Shown here: positions 14,874-61,536 of the stretch, one piece after another | Position numbering within the stretch: the first letter of the stretch is position 1 | Layout of the letters: every line of letters begins with the position of its first letter | Assembly (NCBI GenBank): GCA_003162475.1 | Contig: PMOI01000004.1 | Coordinates: 367,728-431,727 of the forward strand | Reading direction: 5' to 3' | Length of the DNA stretch: 64,000 nucleotides | Origin: Acidimicrobiaceae bacterium | Lineage (GTDB): Bacteria > Actinomycetota > Acidimicrobiia > Acidimicrobiales > RAAP-2 | Made by a program: the position numbers and the translations under genes | The notes under the pieces: generated by a model | The model's input: the letters and a program-made list of their open reading frames with translations, nothing else | Database searches by the model: none | Told to the model about the DNA's origin: nothing

Positions 14874-14945
14874 TCGGCCAGGGGAAAAGTGTGAAACATC
14901 AGCCGTTACCCTGCCACGCATCAACCGAGATAGAACATGAACTCA

Positions 14946-20263: not shown

Positions 20264-20306
20264 GTGGGCCGCCCGGGTCTCGACCCCGGCACCTTGGGAT
20301 TAAAAG
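20264..20306 (-). repeat. tRNA-Lys(UUU)-like 3' fragment, scar 4 (best-paired T-arm)
   Basis: gtgggccgcccgggtctcgaccccggcaccttgggattaaaag; preceded by atcaactgagatagaacat, also found before scar 2. Confidence 0.78.
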
Positions 20307-30975: not shown

Positions 30976-31081
30976 TTAGTTGGCATTTGATTTTCAGAGA
31001 ACTCGTCTGGGAATCGACTGCAGCAGTTCCAATGTCTTGAAGTTGTTTCAACAGCGATTTGTCGGACATATACATTTGCTA

Positions 31082-31124
31082 GTGAGCCGCCTGTGTCTCG
31101 ATCCCGGCACCTTGGGATTAAAAG
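31082..31124 (-). repeat. tRNA-Lys(UUU)-like 3' fragment, scar 5
   Basis: gtgagccgcctgtgtctcgatcccggcaccttgggattaaaag. Confidence 0.75.
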
Positions 31125-31353
31125 GCCACCGAGTTCTTTATTCTCAATTCATTAGATTCAGAGAGCCCCATATTCATAGGGTTTTGCGTTCAGCACGTTC
31201 AGTGCGTTCAGTGGCTATCGGGAAATGTTAGGGATGAAATTAGGGATTTTCCCACCCGATCCTGGCGTCCGCGATTCAACAACGGCCAGCGCGATTATTG
31301 CCGGAAACCCAAGGATCACCATTGGAATCGCTTCTGTGAGTTAGCGATGGCGA

Positions 31354-37366: not shown

Positions 37367-38176
37367 TCACTTGTGCCTGTTGTGTGGAGGCCTCGCGGCC
37401 AGTTGGCTTGGCACGCGCGAGTGGAGGAGAACCCAGTCTCGAAAGTCAGCGTCGATGTAACCCAATAGGTCTTCGAGGTCCCGGATTCGTGCCTCAAGAT
37501 GAAGATTCCAGATTCGTTGATGGTGAGCGATGCGATTTCGAAGATCGAGGAGCCTGATCAGTGGATCTTCGACCGTTTTCAATGAGCGATTGGGTGCATT
37601 GGGAAATCCTCCAGCAAGGTCGGGCCATAACTTGAGATTGCGCTTGGAGATCAGGTAGCGCCAGAAACCGAAACTCAGTTCACTCACGATCTGGGGGTGA
37701 GTCAGCGATTTGCCTTTCCCCGCAACTCTCGATCGGGCATCCAAAATGTCCGTGCGTGCCCGTAGGGTCAACTCATCGGCCGGATCATCGAGCCACGTGC
37801 CGCTTCGTCCGAGGTTGTTGTGGCGCAGGGTCAATTGTCGCGATAGGGCGTTGCGAACGCCGATCTCCAGGTGGCCCAACGATTCCGAAATAGCTGCGCT
37901 GACGGTCGAATTCCAAAGATAGAGTTCGAGGGCTCGGTCGAGGTTGCCGTCGCATACCGCGAGGTACCCTTGAAGTCGCTCCGGACTTAGGTGGAGTTCT
38001 ACGACGGTCCAAAGATTGTTGTCCGGAAGTTCCACGGCTTCTATACTGCTATACGAAAGCCCCGGAGCGGTCCCTGGTAGTTCTTCGGAACAGGCCACAC
38101 CGCCGGGGTTTAGTATTTTCGTTTGGATTGCGCTCACATGGTTCTGATCCTGAGCGCGAGTTCCGAGTGTTTTCAT
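37367..38176 (-). CDS. Abi-like (Abi_2 superfamily) abortive-infection-type protein
   Basis: LELYLWNSTVSAAISESLGHLEIGVRNALSRQL, SFGFWRYLISKRN, LRNRIAHHQRIWN. Confidence 0.8.
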   Translation of the reverse strand: MKTLGTRAQDQNHVSAIQTKILNPGGVACSEELPGTAPGLSYSSIEAVELPDNNLWTVVELHLSPERLQGYLAVCDGNLDRALELYLWNSTVSAAISESLGHLEIGVRNALSRQLTLRHNNLGRSGTWLDDPADELTLRARTDILDARSRVAGKGKSLTHPQIVSELSFGFWRYLISKRNLKLWPDLAGGFPNAPNRSLKTVEDPLIRLLDLRNRIAHHQRIWNLHLEARIRDLEDLLGYIDADFRDWVLLHSRVPSQLAARPPHNRHK

Positions 38177-38291
38177 ATAACCCAGCCGGGTCGGATGAGA
38201 CCCGACCCGTAAGCGAAGATGACCAATTGAGCACGGTCGCGGGCGCCGAATTTTAACATTGCCTGATTGGCGTGCGTCTTGACCGTTACCG
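38173..38291 (-). pseudogene. LuxR/NarL-type HTH C-terminal remnant
   Basis: VTVKTHANQAMLKFGARDRAQLVIFAYGSGLIRPG = recognisable LuxR C-terminus without the rest of the protein. Confidence 0.7.
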
Positions 38292-38402
38292 GCTCGGGGT
38301 GTGACCAATTCAACGCGCGATGGAGAAATTTCAAAGTTGTGGACAGGTTGACCACCGATTCTGACATGTAGTGGGTATGCATTGTTCTAGGAGAGATAGA
38401 CG

Positions 38403-44681: not shown

Positions 44682-47366
44682 GTGACACCGAAAGAGACCG
44701 AGCGTCAGACCCGCAGGACACGGATCGACCCAAAGCTGCGAGCCTCGGGATGGTCAGTGGTGCCCTTCGTCGATATTCGTCCAAGTGGAGCTGCGCTCGC
44801 AATTGAGGAGTTTGAGACCGATCTCGGTCCTGCTGACTACGTACTCGCCGATCAGGCTGAGCTTCTTGGCGTCGTTGAAGCCAAAAAGCTAACGCTCGGA
44901 CCTCAAGGGGTTCTTCCACAGGCTGAGCGTTATGCCTGTGCGATTGAGAGCGGCGAACAGTATCAGGGAAAGTTCGGCGTCCCATTTATCTACTCGACGA
45001 ATGGCGAGGAGATTTGGTTCCACGATGTCAGGCATGCGCTGAACCGCTCCCGCAAGGTCTCCGCATTTCACACCGTGAAGGCTCTACGCGAGATGCAAGA
45101 GCGCAGCCTTGAAGTCGAGTTAGCGACACTACGTGCAATTCCCATTCAGGAGGGCGTTCGCCCATATCAGGTAGAGGCCAACACCGCCATTGAACAAGCA
45201 ATCACCGATCGCCATCGCAAGATGATGGTGACGATGGCGACGGGCACCGGCAAGACACTCATGACAGTTAACGAGATCTACCGACTCATGAAATCGGGAG
45301 TAGCTCGGCGTGTACTTTTTCTTGTCGATCGACGGGCACTGGCAGCACAAACCGTACGCGCCTTCGCCAGCTTTGAGGCAGAGCCAGGTCTCAAGTTTGA
45401 CAAGATCTATCCTGTCTACTCGCAGCGATTCCAACAGACTGACTTCGACGAAAGCGAGAAGTTTGACCCAAACGTCATGCCGAACTCGTTGCTCACCAAT
45501 CCGAAGCTTGGTGATGCCTTTGTCTATGTTTCCACGATCCAAAGAATGAGCATAAACCTGTTCGGTAGCGAAGCCGGTATCCACTTTGGTGAGGGCGATG
45601 CAGTGGACGGAGATGCGAAGAAGCTCGACATACCGATCCACGCATTTGATCTGATCGTGGCCGACGAGTGCCATCGTGGCTACTCTGCCAAGGAACTTTC
45701 AATCTGGAGATCGACACTCGACTGGTTCGATGCGACCAAGATTGGCCTGACCGCCACCCCTGCGGCACACACCATGGCGTACTTCGAGAACATGGTCTAT
45801 CGCTACGACTACGAGCGAGCTGTGCGCGAGGGCTATCTCGTTGACTACGACGTGGTTCGAGTGGCGAGCAATGTCCGAATGAATGGTGTATTCCTTCATG
45901 AAGGGGAACAGGTTGACGAAGTCGATACTGATACGGGTGCTCGCCAACTCGACTTTCTCGAAGACGAGAGACTCTTCGATGCATCAGAAGTTGAGCGAAA
46001 TATCACGGCACCAGATTCAAATAAAAAAATCCTTGAAGAACTGAAGCGTTATGCAGAGGAGCATGAAGCTATAACGGGGCGCTTTCCCAAGATCTTGATT
46101 TTCGCAGCGAATGACCTTCCTCACACTTCTCACGCTGATCAGCTTGTGAATCAGGCGCGAGAGATTTTTGGACGAGGCGAAGCTTTCGTATCAAAAATCA
46201 CAGGACGTGTTGACCGGCCTCTGCAGAAAATCCGAGAGTTTCGTAATCGCCCGAACCCCAAGATCACCGTTACAGTTGACCTGCTCACGACGGGTGTTGA
46301 CATACCCGATCTCGAATTCCTGGTCTTTCTCCGACCCGTGAAGTCTCGAATTCTCTTTGAGCAGATGCTCGGTCGAGGAACTCGCCTGTCTCCGGATCTG
46401 GTGCCCGGTAAGGATCATTTTGTCGTTTTCGACTGTTTTGACGGAACTCTTTTTGAGTATTTCCGCAGCACCACAGGGATGACCGTCGAACCTCCAGAAG
46501 GCGATGGCAAGGCCGTCGAGCAAATCGTCGAGGAGATCTGGCAGAACACTGACAGGGACTACAACACCAAGAGATTGGTGAAGCGCCTGCAACGCATCGA
46601 CAAGAACATGAGCGGCGATGCGCGTGATCTCTTCGCTCGCTTTGTGCCAGACGGGGACGTTGCCCGTTTCGCCGAAGATCTGCCAGCAAAGATTCGAGGT
46701 GAATTCGCCGATACCATGGCAATACTTCGTAATTTCGAATTTCTTGAACTGCTCACCAAGTATCCCAGGGCGGAACGCGTCTTCATCGTGGCTACCGGAG
46801 TTACGGACACGGTTGAATCCGAGTGGCTCATCAAGGCCGGGGTCGGGATGGAATACAAACCTGACGACTACCTCAAGCTCTTTGAGCAGTTCATTGATGA
46901 CCATTCCGACGAGATTCGTGCGGTTCGAATTCTGCTTTCCAAACCAGCGGATTGGGGTGCAGGACCGCTTAAAGAACTTCGTGATGCACTACTTCACGCA
47001 CCTGAGCACTTTACGGAGACGAACCTTGAAAAGGCATTTAGGGCTACGCATCACAAAGCGCTCGTTGACATCATTTCGATGGTGAAACGGGCGGCTACCG
47101 AAACCTCACCATTATTGACTGCGGAGGAGCGCGTCAATTCCGCCGTAGCAACCGTTTCAGCCGGACGTCACCTGACAGAAGAGCAAACTAAGTGGATGGA
47201 ATACATCCGTCAACACCTAGTCCAAAACCTCTCTATTGAACCTAACGACTTTGACATCATCCCGGTCCTCGCCGATCGAGGGGGATGGGGTCGAGCAAAT
47301 CGGACATTTGGCGGCCACCTTGCTGAGTTACTTGACGAGCTGAACATGGAACTGGTGGCCGCATGA
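44682..47366 (+). CDS. hsdR: type I restriction enzyme R subunit
   Basis: N-terminal nuclease VVEAKK, Walker A MATGTGKT, VADECHRGYS, FLRPVKSRILFEQMLGRGTRL; GTG start. Confidence 0.95.
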   Translation: MTPKETERQTRRTRIDPKLRASGWSVVPFVDIRPSGAALAIEEFETDLGPADYVLADQAELLGVVEAKKLTLGPQGVLPQAERYACAIESGEQYQGKFGVPFIYSTNGEEIWFHDVRHALNRSRKVSAFHTVKALREMQERSLEVELATLRAIPIQEGVRPYQVEANTAIEQAITDRHRKMMVTMATGTGKTLMTVNEIYRLMKSGVARRVLFLVDRRALAAQTVRAFASFEAEPGLKFDKIYPVYSQRFQQTDFDESEKFDPNVMPNSLLTNPKLGDAFVYVSTIQRMSINLFGSEAGIHFGEGDAVDGDAKKLDIPIHAFDLIVADECHRGYSAKELSIWRSTLDWFDATKIGLTATPAAHTMAYFENMVYRYDYERAVREGYLVDYDVVRVASNVRMNGVFLHEGEQVDEVDTDTGARQLDFLEDERLFDASEVERNITAPDSNKKILEELKRYAEEHEAITGRFPKILIFAANDLPHTSHADQLVNQAREIFGRGEAFVSKITGRVDRPLQKIREFRNRPNPKITVTVDLLTTGVDIPDLEFLVFLRPVKSRILFEQMLGRGTRLSPDLVPGKDHFVVFDCFDGTLFEYFRSTTGMTVEPPEGDGKAVEQIVEEIWQNTDRDYNTKRLVKRLQRIDKNMSGDARDLFARFVPDGDVARFAEDLPAKIRGEFADTMAILRNFEFLELLTKYPRAERVFIVATGVTDTVESEWLIKAGVGMEYKPDDYLKLFEQFIDDHSDEIRAVRILLSKPADWGAGPLKELRDALLHAPEHFTETNLEKAFRATHHKALVDIISMVKRAATETSPLLTAEERVNSAVATVSAGRHLTEEQTKWMEYIRQHLVQNLSIEPNDFDIIPVLADRGGWGRANRTFGGHLAELLDELNMELVAA

Positions 47367-48781
47367 CCGATGTCGTCAACAAACTTTGGGGCTTCTGCCA
47401 CACGCTCCGTCATGACGGTGTGGACTATGGCGACTACATCGAACAGCTCACGTATCTCCTGTTCCTGAAGATGGCTGATGAACGCGGAGTTGCCGTACCA
47501 GTCGAGACTGACTGGCCCTATCTTCGCAAACAATCTGGAACGGATCTCCTCGACGCCTATATTGAGGCACTGCGAACGCTCGGAAAACAACCCGGCATTC
47601 TTGGTGACATCTTCGGCGGAGCTCAGAACCGATTCACAAATCCCGTAAACCTCGGGAAGCTCATCGGCCTGATTGACGAAACCGAGTGGATATCGATCGA
47701 CACCGATATCAAAGCTGAAGCATTTGAAGGACTCTTGGAAAAGGCGGCCAGCGAAGGGAAGAAGGGCGCGGGTCAGTATTTCACTCCACGAATTCTCATC
47801 CAGAGCATTGTTCGCTGCGTTAAGCCCGACCCGAGGGTCAGCAAGGGCTATTCAATAGACGATCCCGCATGCGGTACTGGTGGCTTTCTCATTGCTGCTT
47901 ATGAGTGGCTTAAGGATGAGACCGGGGGCGCATTCGACCGCGAAACTGCAAAGAAAATTCGTGGCGCAACTTACTTCGGGCAGGAACTCGTCGCCCGCCC
48001 TCGGCGCTTGGCGCTGATGAACATGTACCTCCACCAAGTTGAGCCTCATATCACGCTCGCTGATTCGATTTACGAGGTTCCGCCAGCCCAACGCTACGAC
48101 GTGATTCTTACTAACCCGCCATTCGGGACTAAAGGAGCAAACCAGGCACCCGACCGTGAGGATTTTGTTGTCCAAACCAGCAACAAGCAACTCAACTTCA
48201 TCCAGCACGTACTCACGATTCTCAAGCCGGGCGGACGGGCTGCAGTCGTCGTTCCTGACAATGTTCTATTTGCTCAACAGGCGGGAGAAGTATTCAAAGT
48301 GCTGATGGAGGATTGCAGCGTTCACACCGTCCTGCGTTGTCCCCGTGGCACATTCAGTCCCTATACGGAAGGGACTCAAACAAACGTCATCTTCTTCACA
48401 AAAGGTAGGCCGACCGAGACAGTTTGGATTTACGACGGCCGAGCCAACGTTCCGAAGATAACGAAGAAGAGCCGGCCGCTTACAGCGAAGCACTTCGCAG
48501 AGTTCGAGCTGTGCTTCGGTGAGGATCCCAATGGGCTAGCTTCACGATCTGGTGGCGACTCGATACAAGATCGTTGGCACAGCTTTTCCATTGCTGAAGT
48601 GAAGGACAAGCACTACAAGCTTGACGCTTTCAAATGGCTCCGGGACGAGGAGATCGACGATCCTGATGAGCTTCCTGATCCCGAGGAACTCATAACGGAA
48701 GTAATGGAAGAGTTACAACTCGCGCTCGACGACCTCGCGGACATTCAGCGACTGCTCGACAGCAATGGGAGTGAGGCGTGA
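47363..48781 (+). CDS. hsdM: type I restriction-modification DNA methyltransferase (M subunit)
   Basis: GQYFTPRILIQSIV, DPACGTGGFL, ILTNPPFG. Confidence 0.95.
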   Translation: MTDVVNKLWGFCHTLRHDGVDYGDYIEQLTYLLFLKMADERGVAVPVETDWPYLRKQSGTDLLDAYIEALRTLGKQPGILGDIFGGAQNRFTNPVNLGKLIGLIDETEWISIDTDIKAEAFEGLLEKAASEGKKGAGQYFTPRILIQSIVRCVKPDPRVSKGYSIDDPACGTGGFLIAAYEWLKDETGGAFDRETAKKIRGATYFGQELVARPRRLALMNMYLHQVEPHITLADSIYEVPPAQRYDVILTNPPFGTKGANQAPDREDFVVQTSNKQLNFIQHVLTILKPGGRAAVVVPDNVLFAQQAGEVFKVLMEDCSVHTVLRCPRGTFSPYTEGTQTNVIFFTKGRPTETVWIYDGRANVPKITKKSRPLTAKHFAEFELCFGEDPNGLASRSGGDSIQDRWHSFSIAEVKDKHYKLDAFKWLRDEEIDDPDELPDPEELITEVMEELQLALDDLADIQRLLDSNGSEA

Positions 48782-50040
48782 GTTGGGATGCTGTTGAATT
48801 GCCGGAGGGATGGCGGATGGTCGCCACTGGCGACATTGCCAAGGTGGTCGGCGGTGGAACGCCGAAGACTTCAATCACAGGAAATTTCACAGACAGTGGG
48901 GGGCATCCGTGGGTCACTCCTGCAGACCTGACTGGCTATAACGACAAGTACATTTCGCGCGGACGGAGGAACCTGACCGATCAAGGTCTTAAGGAAAGTT
49001 CGGCCACGTATATGCCCGCAGGGACGGTTCTATTCTCCTCGCGAGCGCCAATCGGGTATGTTGCTATCGCCGCAAACCCAGTCACGACAAACCAGGGTTT
49101 TCGAAGCTTCGTGCCTTCGGAAGAGGTCGATTCAGAATATCTCTATTACGCACTGAAGCTTCTTCGTGCTGATGCAGAGCAGCTTGCGAGCGGCACCACC
49201 TTCGCTGAGATTTCGGGGACAAACGCGAAGAAGCTTCGTTTTCCTCTCGCCCCGAAGGAATCGCAGCACCAGATTGTGAACCTGCTTGACACAGTTTCTG
49301 ACCGACGTGAGACTGCGACGAACCACCTTTATGCGTCTCGTCAAGCTATCGAAAAGTACCGACACGCTGTTCTTGGTGCTGCTTTTCGTGAAGCAAGCCA
49401 AGCCTGTGAAGAAGAAGGGTCTGTGCTCGATCTGGCGCAAGTTCTTCGTGAGCCTCTAAAGAATGGATACTCGGCACGACCCGTGACATTCGAGACTCAA
49501 TTTCGTGTACTTACATTGACAGCTACTACTAGTGGATTATTTGACGGTCAGCACTTTAAATACACCGATGAGGTGTTCCCAGACGATTCGCCATTCTGGC
49601 TGATGCCCGGCGATGTGGTCATTCAACGAGGAAACACAGCTGAGTACGTGGGCGTTCCCGCCATATACGAGGGAGGACCGAGAGAATATTTGTATCCAGA
49701 CCTCATGATCCGGGCACGAGTGCGCGATGACATTGATCCGCGCTACCTGTGGTACATGCTCCTCGCACCTCAATCGAGGAAGTTCCTTCGCGATCGTGCC
49801 ACTGGCTCAGCGGGCAATATGCCCAAGATCAATCAGAAGATTCTGAATGTCGTCCCAATACCCGTGCCCCCAATCGAGACACGGAAAGCAATAGTGATGA
49901 ATCTCGACGTGAGAATGGCGGTAGCAGCGGCAACACTTAGGCGGATTCATGAAGGAGTCGGACACGTTGACCGCGCCTGCCAGGCGGTAGCTCGTAAGGC
50001 TTTCAGTGGGAGCTTGACGACTAATCCTTCTTACCGTTAA
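48778..50040 (+). CDS. hsdS: type I restriction specificity subunit
   Basis: Two TRD-type segments, GGGTPKTSITGNF and GSAGNMPKINQKILNVVPIPVPPIE. Confidence 0.93.
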   Translation: MSWDAVELPEGWRMVATGDIAKVVGGGTPKTSITGNFTDSGGHPWVTPADLTGYNDKYISRGRRNLTDQGLKESSATYMPAGTVLFSSRAPIGYVAIAANPVTTNQGFRSFVPSEEVDSEYLYYALKLLRADAEQLASGTTFAEISGTNAKKLRFPLAPKESQHQIVNLLDTVSDRRETATNHLYASRQAIEKYRHAVLGAAFREASQACEEEGSVLDLAQVLREPLKNGYSARPVTFETQFRVLTLTATTSGLFDGQHFKYTDEVFPDDSPFWLMPGDVVIQRGNTAEYVGVPAIYEGGPREYLYPDLMIRARVRDDIDPRYLWYMLLAPQSRKFLRDRATGSAGNMPKINQKILNVVPIPVPPIETRKAIVMNLDVRMAVAAATLRRIHEGVGHVDRACQAVARKAFSGSLTTNPSYR

Positions 50041-51616
50041 TGGGCGTGACGCGGGTCACGCCATTGTCATCCGTTTCAAGAGCCACATCACCGTAAGGCT
50101 GGAGAACCATCTCTTCACCTCCATCGTCACTTCTCCAGTCAGTGACAGCACGGGCAATGAGGGCATCCGATGTCCACGACGATTCAATCATCCACAGGTC
50201 ATATCCGGATTTGTGACTGTCAACCGCGTGCCACGAGCGCAAACTGCAGACGAGAAATTCGGTGTCACTGAGTATGTGGGGGATCCATTCCGGCATCGTG
50301 TTTCTCTTGGATCCATGCCCAAGTCTGAAAGGATTCTTAACGACTATGCCGACGACCCATTCTGAATCAACGAGGATCTCAGAATCTGGCGAAGCAACGA
50401 CAAATGCGACCGGAACGACTGAACGCAACTTCGTATCCCTCTTCGGATGTCCACGGGTCACTGACTTGTCAATTCTGGGACGAAAATGAATCCGTTCGTG
50501 AATTCCGAGTCGCTCGCATAACTCCCGGAGTGGATTGAGATCCAGTGGTATTCCCACCAGCTGGAAGGAAAGTTCGGCGTGCCAGATGGAGCGGTTCTTG
50601 TCTGCCGAGATAGAGGCAGTCAGTGTGTAGTAGCCATCATCGATTTCGTTGAAGTAGCACATCTCTTCGGAATGATGCGTTTCCATTCCTTCGTATCGCG
50701 TTGCCCAACTTTGGAGGGCTTCGCACAGTGATTGAGTTCCAAACCCATGCCAGTTGGCATGGGCCTGTTGAATGCTCCAACTTCCATTCGTGTTCACCCA
50801 GCCCATCTCCGCCATTTGGCGTATGACATCGAGTAAGCCGTTCTGACCATCAACTGACACTGCGATGTCAACCGAGACTCCAGAACCTCCAGCGGACGCC
50901 CAGTCAATGTCTGGCATTTCTGGAACGAACGTAAACATTCCAAAACCGCCGCCGGACGTGAACCACGAGGATCGGTGTCCGTCGGGATAGAGGAACTCAG
51001 TTTTCGATGAGGGCAAGTCGCCAGGTTTCACCTTCTTGATGTGCGATTGATGCTTAGGAGTCTCGTCGAGTAACACTTCACGATTCACTAACAAAGCCTG
51101 TTTCTTGTCGTGGAGAAGTTTGAGAAAATTGCCGCTCCATCCGAGTGCGTTCTCAATCTCAAGACCGGACACGAGAAGTACAGGACGATCCGACTTGTTT
51201 TTGACCTGCACGATCACGTCCTTGGTGAAGCCCACGTAACTCACGAGTATTCCCGTTACTGATGCAGGAACCGCAGCAAGGCGAGTAAAGAGTGAATCAA
51301 CGTCGTCGATATTCGCGGGATCTTTACGCCACTTTGTTTCGATGAGGTATATCTCGGTCCCGCGAGATGCAAAGAGATCGACCTGGCGTGGCCTTGCAGC
51401 TCTTGCCTTCTTCTCGACTTTGAAATGCTGAGCTTGAAAAAGCTTTCCAACGAACGGCTGGAAATTGTAACCACGTCGATGTGGATCCGTTTGATGCTTG
51501 AGTGCCTCGAACTCCTTAGGAAGGGCGGAAGAGTCTCTCATCTTCGGGCGTACTTGCTTGTCATAAATTGATAGTACGATAGGGGTGTGTCGAGCAGCTG
51601 CGATCCGCTTAAACAC
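50021..51616 (-). CDS. PD-(D/E)XK restriction-endonuclease-like protein with long uncharacterised C-terminus
   Basis: RRGYNFQPFVGKLFQAQHFKVEKKARAARPRQVDLFASRGTEIYLIETKWRKD: D...ExK motif. Confidence 0.75.
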   Translation of the reverse strand: MFKRIAAARHTPIVLSIYDKQVRPKMRDSSALPKEFEALKHQTDPHRRGYNFQPFVGKLFQAQHFKVEKKARAARPRQVDLFASRGTEIYLIETKWRKDPANIDDVDSLFTRLAAVPASVTGILVSYVGFTKDVIVQVKNKSDRPVLLVSGLEIENALGWSGNFLKLLHDKKQALLVNREVLLDETPKHQSHIKKVKPGDLPSSKTEFLYPDGHRSSWFTSGGGFGMFTFVPEMPDIDWASAGGSGVSVDIAVSVDGQNGLLDVIRQMAEMGWVNTNGSWSIQQAHANWHGFGTQSLCEALQSWATRYEGMETHHSEEMCYFNEIDDGYYTLTASISADKNRSIWHAELSFQLVGIPLDLNPLRELCERLGIHERIHFRPRIDKSVTRGHPKRDTKLRSVVPVAFVVASPDSEILVDSEWVVGIVVKNPFRLGHGSKRNTMPEWIPHILSDTEFLVCSLRSWHAVDSHKSGYDLWMIESSWTSDALIARAVTDWRSDDGGEEMVLQPYGDVALETDDNGVTRVTPINGKKD

Positions 51617-51649
51617 CGACCAATAGTCGGCGTTGGCTCTACCGGATAG

Positions 51650-52942
51650 CTAGGTATTCCTATCGCAGTATTTGAACTTCAGTCCACTTCCGCACGGGCA
51701 TCTTTCATTACGTGCGGCCTTGGGAAAGTTGACCTGACCAGCCTCTGGGTCAAACACCCCGTGCTCATGTCCTACTGATCGCATCAGCTCCGGGGAAGCA
51801 TCGATAGGTGGTTCCATGTAGATGTAGCGGTAATCGATATAGCCATCTCCCACAATGTGCCCGACGGCAAGAAGAGACGTGATGGAATTTCCCTGCAATC
51901 CAATTTGCTTGGCTCGTACACATGCGAGAGAGGCAAGCTTGGCATCGAAGTGCTCGATATCTTCGAACAAATCAGACGGTGAACAGCCGAAAACAAACAG
52001 CCGCTCGCTGTTGAACATCCATGCGCCTGACGCCCACGGTCTGTCACGAATCTCCGAGCGCTTTCTCAGAATCCATCGACCTGCTTCAACTTGCATGCCA
52101 GGTGGTACGTCATCGAGAAATTCCAGAATACGTCGCGTGTCCCCAATCGGCACTTGAAGTAATTGCCCCGATTCTTCTGGCCAGATCCTCTCAAGGAGTT
52201 GGCGATAGAGCGCTGCACCCGTCGGGTCGTTGAGGGAATCTGCCGTCAGCCAGGGACGACTTCTTGTTCCTCCAGCGGCTGCGTACTTAGCATCCGCTTG
52301 GACCATCTGTTCAAATCGTTCAGCTTCATAGCCAAGTCTCGGACACACGTTCGGTCCAGCTTCGAGCACGCGCTCCACGTAAATCAACAGACCGGTTACG
52401 GAGCGGATGGCATGGTTGAGCATTAGCCAATCGTCAGTCGTAATCCAGAACGCGTCGGTTCTGGTCGGTTGAGTTCCGTCCATTTCTGGGTGGTCCACCA
52501 CGATGATGGTTTGCCAGTCTGATACATCCATGTCCAGCGGAAGGCCAACCCTTTCTCGAACTTCCGGGCTCCAATCCTCTGCGCGCACAGGAAACGCAGT
52601 GACAATCTCTCCCGCCTTTTGCTGTTCGCTAATCTGTCGTCGAGTTCCCTTCCCCTGTCGATAAGCGCGTTCTCCATGTTTGGCTAACCAGGACTCACCA
52701 GTTTCTGAGCGAGAGACTGGATCACGGGTCTTCACTTGAAGGATTGCCCCGTGTCCATTTGAAATAAGCAGCCCATCTCCGACTTCCCGACTGCCGCCAG
52801 CTCCCTTGGAAAGTACTGGAACGGTGTAAACGAAATCAGCGACGCCCAGACGAGCCGCAATTTTGCGTACGTCATGTTCTATGGCGTTTCCATAGCTCAT
52901 CTCGTCGGTCATTGATTGATGGTAACTAATGGGTGTGACCAT
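51650..52942 (-). CDS. SEC-C motif protein with Mrr/QxK-like N-terminal domain
   Basis: C-terminal NERCPCGSGLKFKYC; N-terminal GDGLLISNGHGAILQVKTRD resembles D...QxK nuclease core. Confidence 0.75.
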   Translation of the reverse strand: MVTPISYHQSMTDEMSYGNAIEHDVRKIAARLGVADFVYTVPVLSKGAGGSREVGDGLLISNGHGAILQVKTRDPVSRSETGESWLAKHGERAYRQGKGTRRQISEQQKAGEIVTAFPVRAEDWSPEVRERVGLPLDMDVSDWQTIIVVDHPEMDGTQPTRTDAFWITTDDWLMLNHAIRSVTGLLIYVERVLEAGPNVCPRLGYEAERFEQMVQADAKYAAAGGTRSRPWLTADSLNDPTGAALYRQLLERIWPEESGQLLQVPIGDTRRILEFLDDVPPGMQVEAGRWILRKRSEIRDRPWASGAWMFNSERLFVFGCSPSDLFEDIEHFDAKLASLACVRAKQIGLQGNSITSLLAVGHIVGDGYIDYRYIYMEPPIDASPELMRSVGHEHGVFDPEAGQVNFPKAARNERCPCGSGLKFKYCDRNT

Positions 52943-53010
52943 AAGAAGGCCTTTAGTTACGGCGATTCGAAGAGACTTGCATAGTGGTTGATGACGTCAG
53001 CGTGCTCGGG

Positions 53011-56000
53011 CTACAAATCGAGTCCGAAGTCGTGGTCGGGCGGCTCCAAGGGACCTTCGCCGGAGAACACGTAGTCGGGTTTCGCCGATGCAGTGAGTGC
53101 GTTGGCTCTCATTGCAGCACCGAGGACTCGACCTCGCTGAGCCTCTTGTTCGTGGTTAACAGGTGCATCGTCGAAGATCGTGTCAGGGTTGTCAATACCC
53201 CAGCGATCTAAGAAGGTCGCGCCAGCGAGGACTTCCCACATCCATTGTTGGTAGCTTTCGTCCGCATCGGGAGCGTCGCCGAAGTCCGACACCCAGGCGT
53301 CGCCGCGTTCAATAGCCATCGTGGCGAGTTCGCAGGCCCGCTGCTCGATGGCGTCGGCCCGGTCGTTCAGCGCGCGCACGACATCGGGATCGGTGATCCC
53401 GCTGGGACGCGCAAAAATGCCGGCGACGAAGTCGCTCGCACTCGGGGCGCGGTAGCCGACGCCCGTCAGGTAGCAATCAATGCGGTGGTACAAGACACTG
53501 GCGACGTCCTCGGCGTCATCGAACGAACGACCCGTGACCAGCGTCGGGAGATCGGTGCCACTATCGAAGCCCCGACTCTCTGCGTCTCGTAATTGCGCGA
53601 GCAGCGCTGAGTACGCGGAGGAAGTTTTAGCTTGGACGAGCTCAGCGTCGCTGAGTCCCGCCTCGCGAAGTGCTTTCTCCCAGCGTCCGCCTTCGGCCAC
53701 CGCGACGATAGTGTCGTACTCGGCGACCAGCGCGGCGATCGACTGGGTCTGGGATCGACGGATCAGGTCAGTAGCCGACACGTCGGCTCCCTCGTGGCGC
53801 AGTACCCCGGCGAGCACGTCGAGGGCGCTCTGCGTCTCGGCCATCCCGTCGTGGCCAGTCGACGGATCAGGGTCGTAGTGGGTGTCCACGTAGAGGTGGT
53901 TGGACTGCGAACCTCGCGTCAGTGACACGTACAGCACTTCACGGGTAGAAGTGGGGCTCGCGAAGGCGTGGGCGGTATCAACGGTGCGCCCCTGGGCGCG
54001 ATGGGCCGTCGAGGCGTAGGCCAGTTCGACGTTCTTGGCGACGTAGTTGGCCGGCAAGACCACCGAGCCGTGACCACTCACCCGGGTGACAGTCATGGAG
54101 CCATCCCGGTGCATAGCCGCGACGGTCCACACGTCGCCGTTCTTGACCCAACTGGTGTCTGTTCTCAGGCGGCGGTCGTTCTCGCGGGTGACGACGAGGT
54201 CGTTCACCCCCGCCGTCATGGCTCCCGCGACGTCGATCCCCTCTTCGCTGACGTAGCCACCGGTGACCCGAGCGCTCCGGGCGCGAGCGTTGAGCTCGTT
54301 GACTGTGGCGGTGTCGCTGGCCAGCATCAACGAGTGCAGCCCATGATCGCTGTCACTCTTCCAGGCGTCGTAGAGCGCGTCGAGCATGTCGTCACGGGTG
54401 CCCTCTGCGACGCGCCCGTGCGCGGCGTAAGTCGCCAGAGCCGCGTGGGTGCCGAGGCGCACCCCGAGGCTGGCCTCCTTCTCCCACGCCGCCGCGAAGC
54501 GGCGGACGTCAGCCAGCGTGGGCGCATCCTCTGCGCGTTCTCGCACCAGGGTGCGGAACATTCCTCCGGCGTCCACACTGGAGAGTTGGGCTCCGTCGCC
54601 GACGAGGACTACTTTGGCCTTCGCGTCGAGGGCGGCCGACGTCAGTTCATCCAGCGCGAACGTCGAGGCCAAACTGGCCTCGTCCACCACGACCAGTTGA
54701 CCGGCGCGAAGAGTCCAGTGCGCCAGGGCCTCCTCGCGCCGGCGAATCTCTTCACGCAGTCGGGGGCTAGGACGTCGTCGCGCGAGGGTGCCCCGACGGG
54801 CCCGCTCGCGAAGTTCTCGGAGCTCGCGAACCCGCTGGCCGTGCTGGCGGTGTTCGTAGAGCCACTTGGCGAGATTGTCTGTGTCAATGCCCATGTCCTC
54901 GCCCAGAACTTCGGCGGCGGCGGCCGACGGCGCGAGACCGATGACCGAGCCGGCATTGTGCTCCGCCTCCCAGGCGGCGCGGAGTCCCGCCATGGCCGTC
55001 GACTTGCCCGTGCCCGCGGGTCCCACCAGAAGATCGAGCGAGCGACCAGAGGTCGTGATCTGCTCGACGCAGTGCGCCTGGTCGATCGAGAGCGTGAAGG
55101 TTCGCCCAGGGAGTCGCCGCTTGGTCGTGGCGAGCACGGTAGCGCTCGCCACCACGGGCGCGTCGAGGCGCTCGGCCGCATCGAGCAGACGGGCTTCGGC
55201 GTTGAGCAGCGTCGTCGAGGTGTAAATCCGGTGGCCGCTGCCTTCGAACTTCGAGCTGCCGTCAGCACGCAGCAAGAAGCGAGGCGTGTGGTGCAGGTGG
55301 GGCGTGGTGATCAACAGCGCCTGGGTCACGGCCAGGTCTGTCGCGCGAGTAGACGTGAGAAGGCGCTCAGCCGGCTCGCGAAAGCGCACCCCCTGCATCT
55401 GGCGAAAGACCTCTGCTTGGAGGTTGGCCCGAGAGAACGTCGGGCGCTTGGTGCTCACGACGTCGAGGGCCGCGTGAGCGACGTCGAGCAGGATCTCGTC
55501 CTCGAAATCGTTGCTCGTGAAGACTGCGACGTCCCGACCCCCCAGCTCGTGGACCCACGACAGTGGTTCGTCGTCGAGGTAGAGCGCGGCTCGAGTGGCC
55601 CACTCTTTCGTCAGATCTCCGAGGTTTCGACCCTTCTTCGCCCGTCGGGTAGCGAGCGTGGCCGTCTGGCGAAGTTTGATCACTTCGACATCGGTCGGGG
55701 CGCGACCGTGATCGTCCTCGAACTGGATGATCAGTCGATTCTTAGCGTCGACGATGGCGGTGGTGCGCTGGGAGAACTCATCCATGAGGACCGTGGAGAC
55801 ACCCGCCACCTCCCACTTCGGGGCGGTGCTGGAACGCCGGGTGTGGGCCTCCCACTCCCAGCCGAGTTCGCCGGTCAGTAGATCAGAGAGCACACCCTGG
55901 TGCATTTCGGAGAGCATCACCGTGGAGGCGAAGAGTTGACGGCTATCGAGGGTGCGCCAGAGGCCGTCACTGGTGGCCTGGGCCCGATTGAGCACGACCA

Positions 56001-56577
56001 CATGGTCGTGGAGTTGGGGATCGCCGTCGCGCGAATCGAAGTGGGTGAAGCTCGCCGCCACCACTCCCACGATGTCCTCCTCGACGCAGCCTTGCTGGCC
56101 GGAGCGAGTGTGAAACACGTCGCGCTCGGCGTGGGCGAGGACCTCGGCGAGGGCCTGTTGGTGGCACCGGTAGATCACTTGGCGAGTCTCTCTGTCGGCC
56201 AGAGCCCAGGCCACCGACACGCTCTTGGAAGGGCTGAACGTGAGGTCGAAACCTCCGACCGCCTTCGCCCCCGGAGCCCTGCCGAGTTTCTCCCCGGTGA
56301 GGGGATCGGCGCAGTCCTGGAGCATCCGCTGGAGGTGCTCTGGCGTGACGGTCTGCCCGACGGCAACGCCACGACCCTCGTCGAGCCCGACCAGTCCGGC
56401 ACCGAGAAAGACTCCCGGGGGAGTGCCGGTCTCTGAGTAGTAGCGAACGAGGTCCGACTTGTCGGTGCCTTCGGGACCGTCGCCGACGGCGATGGATTTG
56501 AGGAGGTACTTGTAACCCGCTCCGATGCTGAGACGTCGAATCGTCATCATGGGGTCGACGCATCCTTCTCGGTACAA
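53011..56577 (-). CDS. MobF (TrwC/TraI-type) relaxase-helicase
   Basis: GGFDLTFSPSKSVSVAWALAD, histidine triad DPQLHDHVVV, Walker A GPAGTGKST, VVDEASLAS, STAHRAQGRTVDTA. Confidence 0.93.
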   Translation of the reverse strand: MYREGCVDPMMTIRRLSIGAGYKYLLKSIAVGDGPEGTDKSDLVRYYSETGTPPGVFLGAGLVGLDEGRGVAVGQTVTPEHLQRMLQDCADPLTGEKLGRAPGAKAVGGFDLTFSPSKSVSVAWALADRETRQVIYRCHQQALAEVLAHAERDVFHTRSGQQGCVEEDIVGVVAASFTHFDSRDGDPQLHDHVVVLNRAQATSDGLWRTLDSRQLFASTVMLSEMHQGVLSDLLTGELGWEWEAHTRRSSTAPKWEVAGVSTVLMDEFSQRTTAIVDAKNRLIIQFEDDHGRAPTDVEVIKLRQTATLATRRAKKGRNLGDLTKEWATRAALYLDDEPLSWVHELGGRDVAVFTSNDFEDEILLDVAHAALDVVSTKRPTFSRANLQAEVFRQMQGVRFREPAERLLTSTRATDLAVTQALLITTPHLHHTPRFLLRADGSSKFEGSGHRIYTSTTLLNAEARLLDAAERLDAPVVASATVLATTKRRLPGRTFTLSIDQAHCVEQITTSGRSLDLLVGPAGTGKSTAMAGLRAAWEAEHNAGSVIGLAPSAAAAEVLGEDMGIDTDNLAKWLYEHRQHGQRVRELRELRERARRGTLARRRPSPRLREEIRRREEALAHWTLRAGQLVVVDEASLASTFALDELTSAALDAKAKVVLVGDGAQLSSVDAGGMFRTLVRERAEDAPTLADVRRFAAAWEKEASLGVRLGTHAALATYAAHGRVAEGTRDDMLDALYDAWKSDSDHGLHSLMLASDTATVNELNARARSARVTGGYVSEEGIDVAGAMTAGVNDLVVTRENDRRLRTDTSWVKNGDVWTVAAMHRDGSMTVTRVSGHGSVVLPANYVAKNVELAYASTAHRAQGRTVDTAHAFASPTSTREVLYVSLTRGSQSNHLYVDTHYDPDPSTGHDGMAETQSALDVLAGVLRHEGADVSATDLIRRSQTQSIAALVAEYDTIVAVAEGGRWEKALREAGLSDAELVQAKTSSAYSALLAQLRDAESRGFDSGTDLPTLVTGRSFDDAEDVASVLYHRIDCYLTGVGYRAPSASDFVAGIFARPSGITDPDVVRALNDRADAIEQRACELATMAIERGDAWVSDFGDAPDADESYQQWMWEVLAGATFLDRWGIDNPDTIFDDAPVNHEQEAQRGRVLGAAMRANALTASAKPDYVFSGEGPLEPPDHDFGLDL

Positions 56578-56666
56578 CCCCTTGTAAGGGCCACCGTAGC
56601 ACTAGTGCCAGACGTGTGAGCCAACAAATAAAAGTGAACGCATAGAGCGGGGAAAGAAAGCGGACT

Positions 56667-56737
56667 GAGAAGCAGGAGGTAGCAAGGCCGAAAAGGGAAG
56701 TCGGATGGAGATAGAGAAGCAGGAGGTAGCAGAGCCG
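56667..56737. repeat. imperfect direct repeats (24 bp, 47-bp period) upstream of relaxase gene; oriT candidate region
   Basis: gagaagcaggaggtagcaaggccg (56667-56690) and gagaagcaggaggtagcagagccg (56714-56737). Confidence 0.6.
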
Positions 56738-56803
56738 ACAGAAGGACGAAAGAGGGGAGGGATATTTAAGATGATGTGGGCCAGGACAACGACGGCGACG
56801 TTG

Positions 56804-56831
56804 ATAGGTCTGTCCCAATAGGTCTGTCCCA
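56804..56831. repeat. 14-bp tandem duplication
   Basis: ATAGGTCTGTCCCA twice in tandem. Confidence 0.7.
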
Positions 56832-56854
56832 ACAGGCTCGATGGAACCTTGATC

Positions 56855-56914
56855 CCCTCGGTTGTGGGTTCGATTCCCCTGACCTCCACTCTGACCTCCA
56901 CTCTGACCTCCACC
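56855..56914 (+). repeat. tRNA/tmRNA-like 3' end fragment followed by triplicated 12-bp unit
   Basis: cctcggttgtgggttcgattccCCTGACCTCCACT: T-loop GGTTCGATTCC and acceptor-like end; CTGACCTCCACT at 56879, 56891 and CTGACCTCCACC at 56903. Confidence 0.5.
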
Positions 56915-57087
56915 GTCGCGTCTGAAGACTCCGTCAGGCAGTCCCGAACGCTCCCTTAATTTGAGTCGTACGCTCGATTCTCAGTTGATTGTGAGAGCGT
57001 TCATGACCTTGCCCACTTGAATGCCTCAAGCGGGTGCTGTGTTACAGGGAGCGCACCCGGCAAATGTTGTTCGCCGACCCGCTACTT

Positions 57088-59289
57088 CTACGGATTACTG
57101 ACAACTGCGGATAGCACTTCCACCATGCCCACAGGCTTGAAATTTTCGGTCACCATACTTTCGATAATGAGGTTCACGAATCCTTCGTACTTGACCAATT
57201 CGATACAGTTGTCGCTCACGAACTTTTTGAGCACAGCCCGACCTGGAAAAGTCTTAACCCATTCACCTTGATCAAGCGCAGTCTGAAACCCATTTCGAAT
57301 TTCGCTCTCCCGAGACTCGAGCCAAGTCACGTCAGCAAGCTCCGACTTAGCCCCTTCGATCCGTTCATAGCTACCAATTATCGAAGGCAATAATGCATTT
57401 GCTGGCGATGCTAAATTTCCACCTTTGATTACGACGCTCTGCACGAGCCGATCGTTAACCTCCGCCTGCAGCCGCCGCTGAACCAAGTCTTCGAGCGTCC
57501 CCGCGGCGGCCACCTTCAGTGCTGCCTCGACGCTCGCAACACTATCGAGCGCCATCGACCCTACCGACGACAAAGCTTTCAATATGTGGGGTGCAGACAA
57601 TAGATAATTCTCAATGTGATATGCATCCCACGACAGTACGTGCGTCCCAGTTTGCATCTCAGCAGAGGGCGTCGAATCACGATCCGTGATGGCGTAGTAC
57701 TTGTCAGTCAGACCGACCTGTTCTGCGGTTCTAGCGAGCACGCCATACAAGTCATTTACCCGACCTTTTGAACCGCCGCTAACCAAAGTAACTCGTTCTG
57801 CCAGGCCGGGGAACAGACGCTGAACCACAGTTACATCGAATTCGGTACCTGCCTCACCTTCGAAGATAAGCACCTTGGCAAATGGTCGGTAGGCGGCAAG
57901 ATCTCCCACAAGATCAACCAGTACCGCTTGGAGCTCATCTTCAGCGACCAGCAGAACCTGATTGTTACCAGGCTCGATATTGACGGCATTCGTCATGTGG
58001 TAGACGGAGTAATTTGGATTACCCACAGCATGCCTCAAGAGGGCATCGGAGTGAGTAACCAGCCAGACCTGGTTGTCGTTAGATTGCGCCAGATGACGGT
58101 AGTAGAAGTCGGGCAAATTTACCAACAATGCTGGATTAAGGTGCATTTCTGGTTCATCGAAGAGGATCGTCGAATGGTGAGGCGTAGAGTTCCTCAATCG
58201 GAGATACCCGTACAGGATCTCCTTCTCGCCAGAACTGAGATCATTTATGTCGTGGCGCTCTCCAGTAGACAGCTCAACTGGGAATGACATATTGCCTTGC
58301 TCATCAATTTGAATCCCGAGGTAACTCTTATGGGGGAAGAATGTCCGAAAGAGTTCTTTTAGAGTTTCATTCAGACTCGAAGCGTCTGTGGAAGCCACAC
58401 CGGCCTCTTTGGCGACAAGATCCCGAACATATGTGGCTACGAGTTCGGACTTAACATTCGCATACTTAGCTTGGTAATTGTAGAGGGTTTGAGTCCGGCG
58501 CTGCCCTTCGATTGCCTTAAGGTCAAGGTTGATGCCGCCCAAACCCTCACGTGTATAAATCCTTTGTGAACTATGAAAGTCTATGATCCCCAAATCATCT
58601 GGTTGAAAAGTCTGAAAGACGACTCGCGCAACAAGCGAGTTTGAGATGTTGATTGCGCTATTCGGTTCTATTGACAGACTCAGAGAATGGGTTGATGCGT
58701 TCAACTCCGTTGCGAGAAGCGCTGCCGTTTGTTGAGTCTGCTGAGCGACTACCGGTGCGAGTTGAGGATATTGCGCCGTATACGCCAGATTGCTGAATAG
58801 AAATATCTCAAGTGGTTGTCTCGTAACTTCCGCCCAGATGATCGGCTCGAGTACTTGGTATGCGTTGTCCAGAAGATAGCGTTTCTCATCGTCCGCCAGC
58901 TCGATCGTTGCCGATATCCGAACCGGAAGAGTCTTATTACGAAATAGGGCCGACATATCGTTTGGTGCCATCTGAAACTCGCCAAACCACTGCATAGATT
59001 CATTAGTCTGATAACCACCGTAGGCACTCTTTAGCAGCCGAATTGCATCCAGGACCTGTGACTTCCCACACCCGTTCGGTCCGGCGATTATCACCATCTT
59101 TGCTAAGGAGTTCACTTCAAAACGCGCGATGGCTCGAAAATTGGTTATCTGGAGTTGCTGGAACCGCACGGCGAAGAGTTCCTTTCCTCCGAGAATCGTT
59201 GACCGGATGCTATAACACCTGGGTTGCTTCAGTTGCTGTAGCCGCGCGGATGCTGTCGAACGCATTTCTATCGACCGATCCCAACTCAA
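57088..59289 (-). CDS. AAA ATPase fused to TOPRIM/DUF4435-like domain (OLD-like; candidate merged PARIS AriA-AriB)
   Basis: RFQQLQITNFRAIARFEV, IIAGPNGCGKS, LSSGEKEILYGYLRL, STILFDEPEMHLNP; C-terminal KVLIFEGEAGTEFD, AITDRDS, WDAYHIENYLL. Confidence 0.85.
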   Translation of the reverse strand: MSWDRSIEMRSTASARLQQLKQPRCYSIRSTILGGKELFAVRFQQLQITNFRAIARFEVNSLAKMVIIAGPNGCGKSQVLDAIRLLKSAYGGYQTNESMQWFGEFQMAPNDMSALFRNKTLPVRISATIELADDEKRYLLDNAYQVLEPIIWAEVTRQPLEIFLFSNLAYTAQYPQLAPVVAQQTQQTAALLATELNASTHSLSLSIEPNSAINISNSLVARVVFQTFQPDDLGIIDFHSSQRIYTREGLGGINLDLKAIEGQRRTQTLYNYQAKYANVKSELVATYVRDLVAKEAGVASTDASSLNETLKELFRTFFPHKSYLGIQIDEQGNMSFPVELSTGERHDINDLSSGEKEILYGYLRLRNSTPHHSTILFDEPEMHLNPALLVNLPDFYYRHLAQSNDNQVWLVTHSDALLRHAVGNPNYSVYHMTNAVNIEPGNNQVLLVAEDELQAVLVDLVGDLAAYRPFAKVLIFEGEAGTEFDVTVVQRLFPGLAERVTLVSGGSKGRVNDLYGVLARTAEQVGLTDKYYAITDRDSTPSAEMQTGTHVLSWDAYHIENYLLSAPHILKALSSVGSMALDSVASVEAALKVAAAGTLEDLVQRRLQAEVNDRLVQSVVIKGGNLASPANALLPSIIGSYERIEGAKSELADVTWLESRESEIRNGFQTALDQGEWVKTFPGRAVLKKFVSDNCIELVKYEGFVNLIIESMVTENFKPVGMVEVLSAVVSNP

Positions 59290-59846
59290 ATGTCAGCGAC
59301 CATGTCAGCGACGGGGGCGAGTCCAGCTGAAACGTGCTGAATCTTAATTCTTCTCTAGCTCTTTAATCCCTTGGCTTTACGAGTTAGCGCGAACTGTTAT
59401 GAACACGTCCGGACGGCATGACACGCAAGAGGTCACGGACTAACATTCCGAGCCGCCCAATCCCGGACTCGCCATTAGATCGTGCACGTCGGCCCACGGT
59501 CTCGAACCCACACGGCCTAATCAAGCCGCCAGTGAGGGTGCAGAACCGTTAAGTCGGGCCCCCGACACCAATCAGACCTATTGGAACCGTGACGTCGGTC
59601 AACTGACGCGAGCGCTCTGTAACCAAAGCAGTAGTTGGCATCGTTAAGAACTGACTACTGCGAACCCGTTGGTTGACTCGACTGTTCGGAACGAACACGA
59701 TGAAGCGGTCGGTAGCAAGATGTTGTGAATACGTTGTTACAGGATTCTGCTAGCGATAGATGAGGAGGCACGACCATGTGGACGACGAGTGACATTCAGC
59801 GACTATGTGAGGTTTACCTTGAGTCCTTCATGCCGCTTGGTCCAAA

Positions 59847-61040
59847 TTGCGATCTCACATGACCGGTGCCCGTCCGCCAGTAGTTATCGAGCTCGACGTC
59901 AAGGGCACTCAGCGCCTGATCTCGCGACTTGCAGTCAGTGAATTAGTGAAGAGGATCTTGCTGCGCCATGTGTCGCTCGCGCTAGCGTGCGTCGCTCTGG
60001 GTGCCGCGTTGATGTCCCAAGCTCCGAGTGCGGGTGCCGCGGCAACAACGGTGCCTTATCCGATGCTCGGCACGAACCTCACTACGGAATACGTTGCTGC
60101 GGGAACGCAACCATCGATCACCGTGACTGCGAGTGATCCCACCGACACTCCCAATACGGGAGTATCAGAGTACCTGTGGGGCCCCCTGCAAGTACCGACG
60201 TCCGGTGAATGTTCCACCCTTACGCTCGCTCAATTTGACATGGAGAGTCCGGGTGTCGGGGTCTATACCTCGATGATCCCTAATTTGTTGGGGACAGTAG
60301 TTAGCGCCAGCGGTCCTGCAACCATCGTCGGCCCTGTCGCCTCAACTGCGGGATGTTATGGGTGGACTACTCCCACAACGGGGACTGCAGAATCAACGTC
60401 ACCCACCACGACAACGACGACCACAGTGCCGGTTGCCGTAAGGACGACCATCACTTGCATGCGCGGAAGGACCACAAAGAAGGTGGAGGCGTTAAGTCCG
60501 AAGTGTCCCCGCGGTTACAAGAGAGCCTCGACAATTTCATGCGTCAGGGGATTAGCGACTAGGAAAGTGACGGCGGTAAGTCCGAAGTGTCCCCGCGGTT
60601 ACAGGGAAAAGAAGAGTGCTCCAAAGTCACCGGTGACCACGACGAGCACGACAATCCCAGCTCCCACGTCGGGCCTGTCCTCGTGTGGGGACTGTGGAGT
60701 CGCGGCATTAATTAATGCTGACCGCGCCACTCTTGGCCTGTCTCCTTTGGCACTGATCAACAATGCCTCCGGTGTGCAACTGAGTGCCCTTCTTTTCGTG
60801 TCAGCTTCCGATGATCCGGGCATAGCGGCGTGGAACATTGCGGCAACTGACACTCCGAGACAAGCCGCTATAGCAGCGGTAGATGCTTGGTGGGCTGAAG
60901 GGCCTGGGTTCGCCGCCGATGGTCACGGTCACTATGACGCGATCGTGAACCCGAACTACACCTCGATCTCCGTCGCAGTTGCGTTCCAACCAGCGGGTAC
61001 GCCACTCGGGCCTTGTTGGGTTGTCGTCGCAGGGCTATAA
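59847..61040 (+). CDS. secreted protein: Cys-containing repeats plus CAP/SCP-like domain
   Basis: Hydrophobic signal, TTTTTT linkers, two C(M/V)RGxxT(K)KV..SPKCPRGY repeats, LINADRATLGLSPLALIN...NPNYTSISVAVAF CAP-like core. Confidence 0.72.
   Translation: MRSHMTGARPPVVIELDVKGTQRLISRLAVSELVKRILLRHVSLALACVALGAALMSQAPSAGAAATTVPYPMLGTNLTTEYVAAGTQPSITVTASDPTDTPNTGVSEYLWGPLQVPTSGECSTLTLAQFDMESPGVGVYTSMIPNLLGTVVSASGPATIVGPVASTAGCYGWTTPTTGTAESTSPTTTTTTTVPVAVRTTITCMRGRTTKKVEALSPKCPRGYKRASTISCVRGLATRKVTAVSPKCPRGYREKKSAPKSPVTTTSTTIPAPTSGLSSCGDCGVAALINADRATLGLSPLALINNASGVQLSALLFVSASDDPGIAAWNIAATDTPRQAAIAAVDAWWAEGPGFAADGHGHYDAIVNPNYTSISVAVAFQPAGTPLGPCWVVVAGL
60488..60603 (+). repeat. 32-bp direct repeat encoding SPKCPRGY module
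   Basis: ggcgttaagtccgaagtgtccccgcggttaca (60488-60519) and ggcggtaagtccgaagtgtccccgcggttaca (60572-60603): one mismatch. Confidence 0.85.
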
Positions 61041-61056: not shown

Positions 61057-61536
61057 CTACTTGTTCTGCAATTCGCCACGTTTCGAATCAAATGAGTCAG
61101 AACTCGTATCGGTGGATCGACGCCGGGGATTGGTCGAGAGCCACGGCGCGGGGGGTGTGCTCACTACCCGCACTCGGCGCAACGCTTCGTAAGCCGCTCG
61201 AGTTCCCTCCAAAGCGACCTCAATGCGACCTACGCCGCTCACCAGCACCTCGCACTGCGCCCGAAGTTCGGCGATTTCACCGTGAGCGGCCTCGAGCTCG
61301 GCCTTCAACCGGTCCACCTCACTGTCGGCAACGTAGGAACGTCCTCCCCGGAACGGTTCATCCAGAATTTCAAGTCCGGCGTTATCGAGAGCGGTCACGC
61401 TCACGAAGATGCGCTTGTTTTGATCTTCCCGGGGTTCGGGTACCAATACACCGGCCTCGATCAAGCGTCGAAGCGTCCCGTGCGACTTGTGGCACGCCCG
61501 GGCAGCTTCACTGAGGGTGAGCAGTTTCGTATCCAT
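61057..61536 (-). CDS. helix-turn-helix (MerR/excisionase-like) DNA-binding protein with coiled coil
   Basis: LLTLSEAARACHKSHGTLRRLIEAGVLVPEPREDQNKRIFVS followed by helical VDRLKAELEAAHGEIAELRAQ. Confidence 0.75.
   Translation of the reverse strand: MDTKLLTLSEAARACHKSHGTLRRLIEAGVLVPEPREDQNKRIFVSVTALDNAGLEILDEPFRGGRSYVADSEVDRLKAELEAAHGEIAELRAQCEVLVSGVGRIEVALEGTRAAYEALRRVRVVSTPPAPWLSTNPRRRSTDTSSDSFDSKRGELQNK

Follow-up and report, generated by a model that had tools for sequence, protein, structure and literature searches.

Type I restriction-modification genes and a single-chain PARIS-type gene as probable independent cargo of an integrative and conjugative element in an Acidimicrobiaceae genome

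The defence genes described here are probably carried by an integrative and conjugative element (ICE) that is inserted at a tRNA-Lys(UUU) gene. Several islands would be arrayed there in tandem, with the ICE as the one next to the tRNA. A type I restriction-modification (RM) operon and a fused AriAB gene of the PARIS type would be independent cargo of this element. The window, a 64,000-nucleotide stretch of an Acidimicrobiaceae genome, contained all seven open reading frames of the original prediction at their predicted coordinates and strands. That prediction had rightly recognized a defence cluster on a mobile element, and the type I RM and the fused PARIS-type gene were confirmed as its passengers. 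The seven genes are as follows.

44682..47366, + strand: hsdR, type I restriction subunit, 894 aa (EcoEI_R_C 1.4e-34, ResIII 1.1e-31; PADLOC REase_I 1.6e-79)
47363..48781, + strand: hsdM, type I methyltransferase with NPPF motif, 472 aa (N6_Mtase 1.3e-62; PADLOC MTase_I 1.2e-160)
48778..50040, + strand: hsdS, specificity subunit with two target-recognition domains, 420 aa (Methylase_S 2e-35, two stretches)
50021..51616, - strand: Mrr-type restriction endonuclease, 531 aa (Mrr_cat 1.5e-6, aa 49-156; D...ETK motif readable; no domain assigned to the C-terminal half)
51650..52942, - strand: SEC-C protein, 430 aa (SEC-C 2e-6, sole Pfam match)
53011..56577, - strand: mobF, the ICE relaxase, MobF (TrwC) with RecD-like helicase, 1188 aa (TrwC 1.5e-74, AAA_30 3.5e-55)
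57088..59289, - strand: fused ariAB, 733-aa ORF (PADLOC AriAB 2.8e-173; AAA_15/AAA_21 and DUF4435)

The HsdR, HsdM, and HsdS domains were all intact in Pfam and PADLOC searches and formed one operon (44682-50040, + strand), with the HsdR/HsdM and HsdM/HsdS ORFs each overlapping by 4 bp. hsdM was the sole N6_Mtase match in the source genome, and both Methylase_S matches of that genome fell within hsdS. Beyond the operon, two opposite-strand proteins had been described as PD-(D/E)XK-like. The first has an Mrr_cat domain; a Streptomyces plasmid protein annotated "restriction endonuclease" is 37.9% identical to it over 88%. The second showed only SEC-C in Pfam, and its distant relatives (26%) on Streptomyces plasmids are annotated hypothetical. 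A D...QVK motif read by eye makes it a possible PD-(D/E)XK-like nuclease. The GC content of the MobF gene was about 61-68%, compared with 48-54% to either side, which indicates that the cluster is a mosaic. An Rfam scan of the window from 40 to 64 kb gave no significant match. Left of the RM operon, further defence-type cargo was present:

37367..38308, - strand: Abi_2/AbiD-like protein (Pfam Abi_2 9.2e-5; PADLOC PD-T4-5 1.9e-9, AbiD 7e-7)

A protein with Peptidase A4, fn3, and List_Bact repeat domains is encoded at 39908-41500, also left of the RM genes. Its homologue in a sister ICE (L054:281-1840) is inverted and adjoins the transfer module.

The original prediction saw no coupling protein or VirB4 and took the unit to be mobilisable rather than self-conjugative. 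The absence was real inside the window and did not extend to the whole element, as both genes lie to the right. The transfer module and integrase begin just beyond the window, and the mobilisable reading was an artefact of its edge. We followed the contig rightward (L030, L031) and found transfer genes within 20 kb, ending at tRNA-Lys(UUU). The order was a repeat-rich surface protein, sortase, NlpC/P60 hydrolase, SCO6881-like protein, SCO6880-like protein, and ParA-like ATPase, then a VirB4-like ATPase, VirD4/TraG coupling protein, a pentapeptide, ArdC-N, and M78 protein, tyrosine integrase, and tRNA-Lys. The coupling protein (TraG-D_C 6.8e-25, T4SS-DNA_transf 4.3e-18), the phage integrase (1.2e-22), and ArdcN (2.4e-5) were matched, the SCO6880-like protein passed its cut-off, and the VirB4-like ATPase scored 2e-16, below model cut-offs. 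Beyond tRNA-Lys, the genes appeared chromosomal by eye (MshA-, ProC-, and Rex-like). Two genes of the module lie inside the window:

59847..61040, + strand: CAP-domain surface protein, with which the conserved transfer module begins (CAP 8.6e-6)
61057..61536, - strand: HTH/MerR-like regulator, conserved in the transfer module (HTH_17 2.7e-4; orthologues in L054 and L055)

The CAP-domain protein also adjoins transfer genes in four other genomes (G1184, G1193, G008, and G023). The pentapeptide-repeat, ArdC-N, and M78 metallopeptidase protein (L031:454-2193) places an anti-restriction-like protein alongside a putative anti-restriction sensor on one ICE. The large surface protein of the module has its frame broken by two N bases, an assembly gap, at about L030:4947-5100.

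Copies of the 3' part of tRNA-Lys(UUU) were spread over the left of the window:

31080..31129, + strand: att-like 3' copy, likely left ICE end (6 mismatches in 50; intact tRNA lies beyond the window, 51.6 kb further right)
20262..20311, + strand: att-like 3' copy (6 mismatches in 50)
17988..18037, + strand: att-like 3' copy (8 mismatches in 50)
14944..14993, + strand: att-like 3' copy (10 mismatches in 50)
1221..1270, + strand: att-like 3' copy (11 mismatches in 50)

A weak further copy was located at 37004 (14 mismatches), and none occurred on the other strand or in shuffled sequences. The simplest reading of these repeats would be islands accreted in tandem at one tRNA. From the same repeats, we infer that the last, intact island is an ICE of about 46-52 kb, whose left end lies at 31.1 kb (or 37.0 kb) and whose right end falls near 82.7 kb in extended coordinates. 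Relaxase, coupling protein, VirB4-like ATPase, integrase, and att repeats at a tRNA gene are thus all present.

The degenerate att copies along the array, together with the interrupted surface gene, would suit a decayed conjugative island in which defence genes remain and transfer functions are dead; the interruption itself coincides with the assembly gap (NN). We consider decay unlikely, as the reading frames of the integrase, the relaxase, and the VirB4-like, VirD4-like, and SCO6880-like proteins are all uninterrupted. Moreover, a sister ICE occupies the same tRNA-Lys in another species (G1193) and is colinear over 59676-82750 at 83-88%, with an integrase 98.5% identical at the DNA level.

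Comparison with sister elements delimited the position of ariAB within the ICE:

56729..59637, no strand: variable cargo slot separating mobF from the transfer module, occupied by ariAB here (homology breaks at edges)

Homology to sister elements ended at about 56551-56728 and resumed at 59638/59676. In those elements, the MobF gene and transfer module are likewise divergent, with differing genes between them: G1184 (L047) has a sigma-factor-like gene with two further genes, G034 (L052) has unassigned genes, and G1207 (L095) encodes a PDC-M48B metallo-beta-lactamase-fold protein. The left edge of the slot in the G1193 element was cut off by the contig end. Because slot content varies between sister elements and homology stops at the slot edges, ariAB is cargo and not backbone. 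A second variable region lies beyond the 3' end of the MobF gene. It holds the type I RM in the window, another type I RM, distinct from that one, in G1184 (REase_I 2.2e-112), and AbiD in G034. The relaxase gene of the window is thus flanked by type I RM and the Mrr-type nuclease on one side and single-chain AriAB on the other.

The predicted MobF relaxase was borne out, with TrwC joined to a RecD-like helicase and the NCBIfam MobF model passed (7.2e-63, 212.9 against a cut-off of 100 bits). HxH and Walker A motifs are readable, and the real start of mobF is probably an ATG near 56550. This gene was found in 17 of 99 genus genomes, in up to three copies each and at differing places. A short sequence accompanies it:

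56605..56619, - strand: candidate oriT core TCACACGTCTGGCAC, upstream of mobF (exact 15-mer recurrence)

The exact 15-mer occurred in 20 copies across 13 of the 99 genomes, compared with 0 for the reversed control pattern. Most copies lay 59-381 bp upstream of a MobF start, and the three in the source genome were distributed one per MobF gene. We propose from this recurrence that TCACACGTCTGGCAC is a putative oriT/nic region of MobF. The TTGTCT preceding it presumably resembles MobF nic sites. A tRNA-like 3' end (GGTTCGATTCC T-arm) was also observed at 56838-56890, just upstream of mobF, and a similar T-arm region lies upstream of MobF in L092; it is possibly an old att site of another element.

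The other two MobF copies of the source genome (G000:C10:41450-45004 and G000:C11:34319-37873) are about 80% identical. The C10 copy lies beside a type IIG RM and a DUF262-like gene, and the C11 copy beside Old-like, PDC-S37, and Mrr-like genes. Movement of MobF alone as a Helitron/IS91-like unit was considered and rejected, as what the copies have in common is the gene and a short motif ahead of it, and their outer ends do not correspond. We prefer a relaxase and oriT residing on several IMEs/ICEs. Among the other MobF loci, 9 out of 16 had strong, specific defence matches within about 6 kb, comprising type I RM, type IIG RM, OLD-like, three CD-NTases, AbiD, ThsA-like, and PDC-M48B. Fifteen random control stretches, tallied per family and unblinded, yielded one or more type I RM loci and a few other strong matches. 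Since this control set is small and not blind, the association between MobF and defence genes in the genus is no more than suggestive.

The last gene of the cluster had been called PARIS-like, and profiles placed it there in the single-chain form. The PADLOC AriAB fusion model (PDLC02981) was the best match and covered the full length (576 bits, 2.8e-173, query 43-730 against 3-691 of 694). The product has an ABC ATPase at aa 1 to about 400, a TOPRIM/DUF4435 region at aa ~430-540, and a helical C-terminus. Judged from the starts of relatives, translation probably begins at GTG 59169 (693 aa) and not at TTG 59289. The ATPase domain matched AAA_15 (1.6e-15) and AAA_21 (2.5e-16). Across nine aligned AriAB proteins, the Walker A GxNGxGKS, the LSxGEKE signature, and DEPE were invariant, as were TOPRIM residues E437 and D496/D498 (numbered from GTG 59169). 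A WDxYHxENYLL motif is also kept across the aligned relatives. DUF4435, the Pfam family that defines AriB, matched seven of nine family members (best 1.6e-8) and scored 0.0028 in the window protein (17.9 bits, below the Pfam cut-off of 27).

A single-chain ATPase plus TOPRIM is also the layout of OLD/GajA. The fused gene might then encode an OLD/Gabija-type ABC-ATPase-TOPRIM nuclease that attacks DNA, by nicking or degradation, and not tRNA. In PADLOC, the product was also matched by the GajA, Old, and PtuA models, with scores ranging over 43-61 bits. We searched two AlphaFold models with Foldseek. The full-length model, of mediocre pLDDT (70.5), gave retron Eco8, PtuA, and GajA ATPases as top matches, with AriA not among the 50 best matches listed; the C-terminal model (pLDDT 81) matched no solved structure at E<=0.001. 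A phmmer search of the PDB returned no significant match, including to solved AriA/AriB, and a profile search returned ATPase-domain relatives, with AriA weakly matched (0.003). A review leaves unclear whether fused AriAB differs in its working from class 1 OLD (PMC10568477). Nevertheless, a DNA nuclease of this type seems distinctly unlikely, as the AriAB model reached 576 bits over the full length against 51 for GajA and 43 for Old, and DUF4435 is present in AriAB relatives.

Relatives 38-45% identical to AriAB were found in Alpha- and Gammaproteobacteria, on two plasmids (Lichenicola and Kovacikia), and on one predicted viral contig. Apart from the window copy, searches detected fused AriAB neither in 60 close relatives of the source genome, where only weak ATPase-domain matches appeared, nor in 397 genomes of its phylum. 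In two sampled classes of relatives, AriAB matches occurred in 1 of 367 genomes (the source genome) and 2 of 352 (the source and one other). Judged from this distribution, ariAB is a rare, horizontally acquired gene. On the Lichenicola plasmid, an ATP-binding protein and DUF4435 gene pair (L014:6712-8567) follows 2.6 kb after fused AriAB, possibly placing fused and two-gene PARIS side by side. In the window, an intergenic stretch of about 100 bp upstream of ariAB (59467-59580) has 73-97% similar pieces scattered over many genus genomes and no Rfam match.

The original prediction had further proposed a layered unit of RM and PARIS, in which AriAB would protect RM from anti-restriction proteins. 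The source genome indeed has its sole type I RM 7 kb from AriAB, on the same element, and anti-restriction proteins trigger E. coli PARIS (PMC9122126). However, the two systems are encoded on opposite strands and separated by the relaxase gene, and PARIS of E. coli functions in the absence of RM (PMC9122126). No HsdR/M/S-like gene was present in the 10 kb flanks of 15 AriAB relatives. Thirteen other genomes have fused AriAB; HsdS was absent from 6 of them and in no case lay closer than 10 kb to the fusion, the nearest being at 14 kb (on a plasmid) and 17.5 kb (beside a truncated AriAB). The presence of HsdS in 7 of these 13 genomes compares with 9 of 14 well-known control genomes. Maintenance of RM and AriAB as one functional unit is therefore very improbable. 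Their co-location is best read, from the gene arrangement, as apparent shared residence on a defence-rich ICE. The two may be functionally complementary, though not a fixed two-part design.

Where PARIS is encoded by two genes, AriB is bound to a hexamer of AriA until anti-restriction proteins trigger its release, and the freed AriB dimer then cuts tRNA-Lys(UUU) (PMC11455837, PMC12409363). By analogy, RM on the ICE would cut incoming unmodified DNA, and AriAB would act as a PARIS-type abortive-infection protein. Its ATPase half would sense an invader protein, which in E. coli is a DNA-mimic anti-restriction protein, and sensing would activate the TOPRIM half, leading to tRNA cleavage and a growth stop. 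Since sensor and nuclease are one chain, release of free AriB is ruled out unless the chain is cut. The fused protein would instead be switched on in cis by a change within the oligomer, or by proteolysis.

The tRNA-Lys(UUU) that serves as the ICE site is the tRNA cut by E. coli AriB. Because the same tRNA sequence occurs in relatives without detected fused AriAB, this overlap looks like a coincidence. Alteration of the PARIS-target tRNA-Lys by the ICE was rejected on the same identical stretches. A more ambitious reading, which we regard as a long shot, makes fused AriAB a PARIS variant whose nuclease stays tethered and is activated inside the oligomer. On the ICE, it would mainly exclude competing conjugative elements and phages that bring anti-restriction proteins, the ArdC-like protein of the ICE itself would escape sensing, and MobF-plus-oriT units of the genus would be general carriers of defence cargo.

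Our findings locate a fused PARIS gene on a conjugative element, in a lineage whose several hundred sampled genomes show no other. They open to testing the question of how PARIS operates when its AriA and AriB parts cannot come apart. The recurrent linkage of relaxase, oriT, and defence genes offers a way to find defence cargo in a little-studied actinobacterial-type genus. Our results also illustrate that a window edge can make an ICE look like a merely mobilisable island.

The arrangement is informative yet largely familiar, with RM, PARIS fusion, and ICE each of known kinds. The RM operon matches type I systems with an EcoEI-like HsdR C-terminus in its R-M-S order and intact domains, with nothing unusual here. 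Actinobacterial conjugative elements with MobF and SCO6880/SCO6881 have the same relaxase, VirD4-like and VirB4-like ATPases, sortase, NlpC/P60 protein, tyrosine integrase, and tRNA att site; in contrast to them, the relaxase and transfer genes here are divergent around a cargo slot, with a recurrent oriT-like 15-mer and defence neighbours. ICE and genomic-island hotspots of Pseudomonas (PAPI/PAGI, PMC12629846) likewise keep their defence cargo in variable loci bounded by conserved ICE genes, whereas host, backbone, and att site differ. PARIS of E. coli B185 (AriA + AriB) shares with the window system an ABC ATPase, a DUF4435/TOPRIM effector, conserved catalytic residues, and residence on a mobile element. 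The window system, however, is one polypeptide, 38-45% identical to other fusions and with no significant phmmer match to AriA/AriB, in which E. coli-style AriB release would require cleavage. The single-gene AriAB fusions of Rousset et al. 2022 (PMC9122126) have the same domain order, and the PADLOC model of AriAB fusions was matched over the full length; the window copy differs from them in sitting on an actinobacterial-type ICE.
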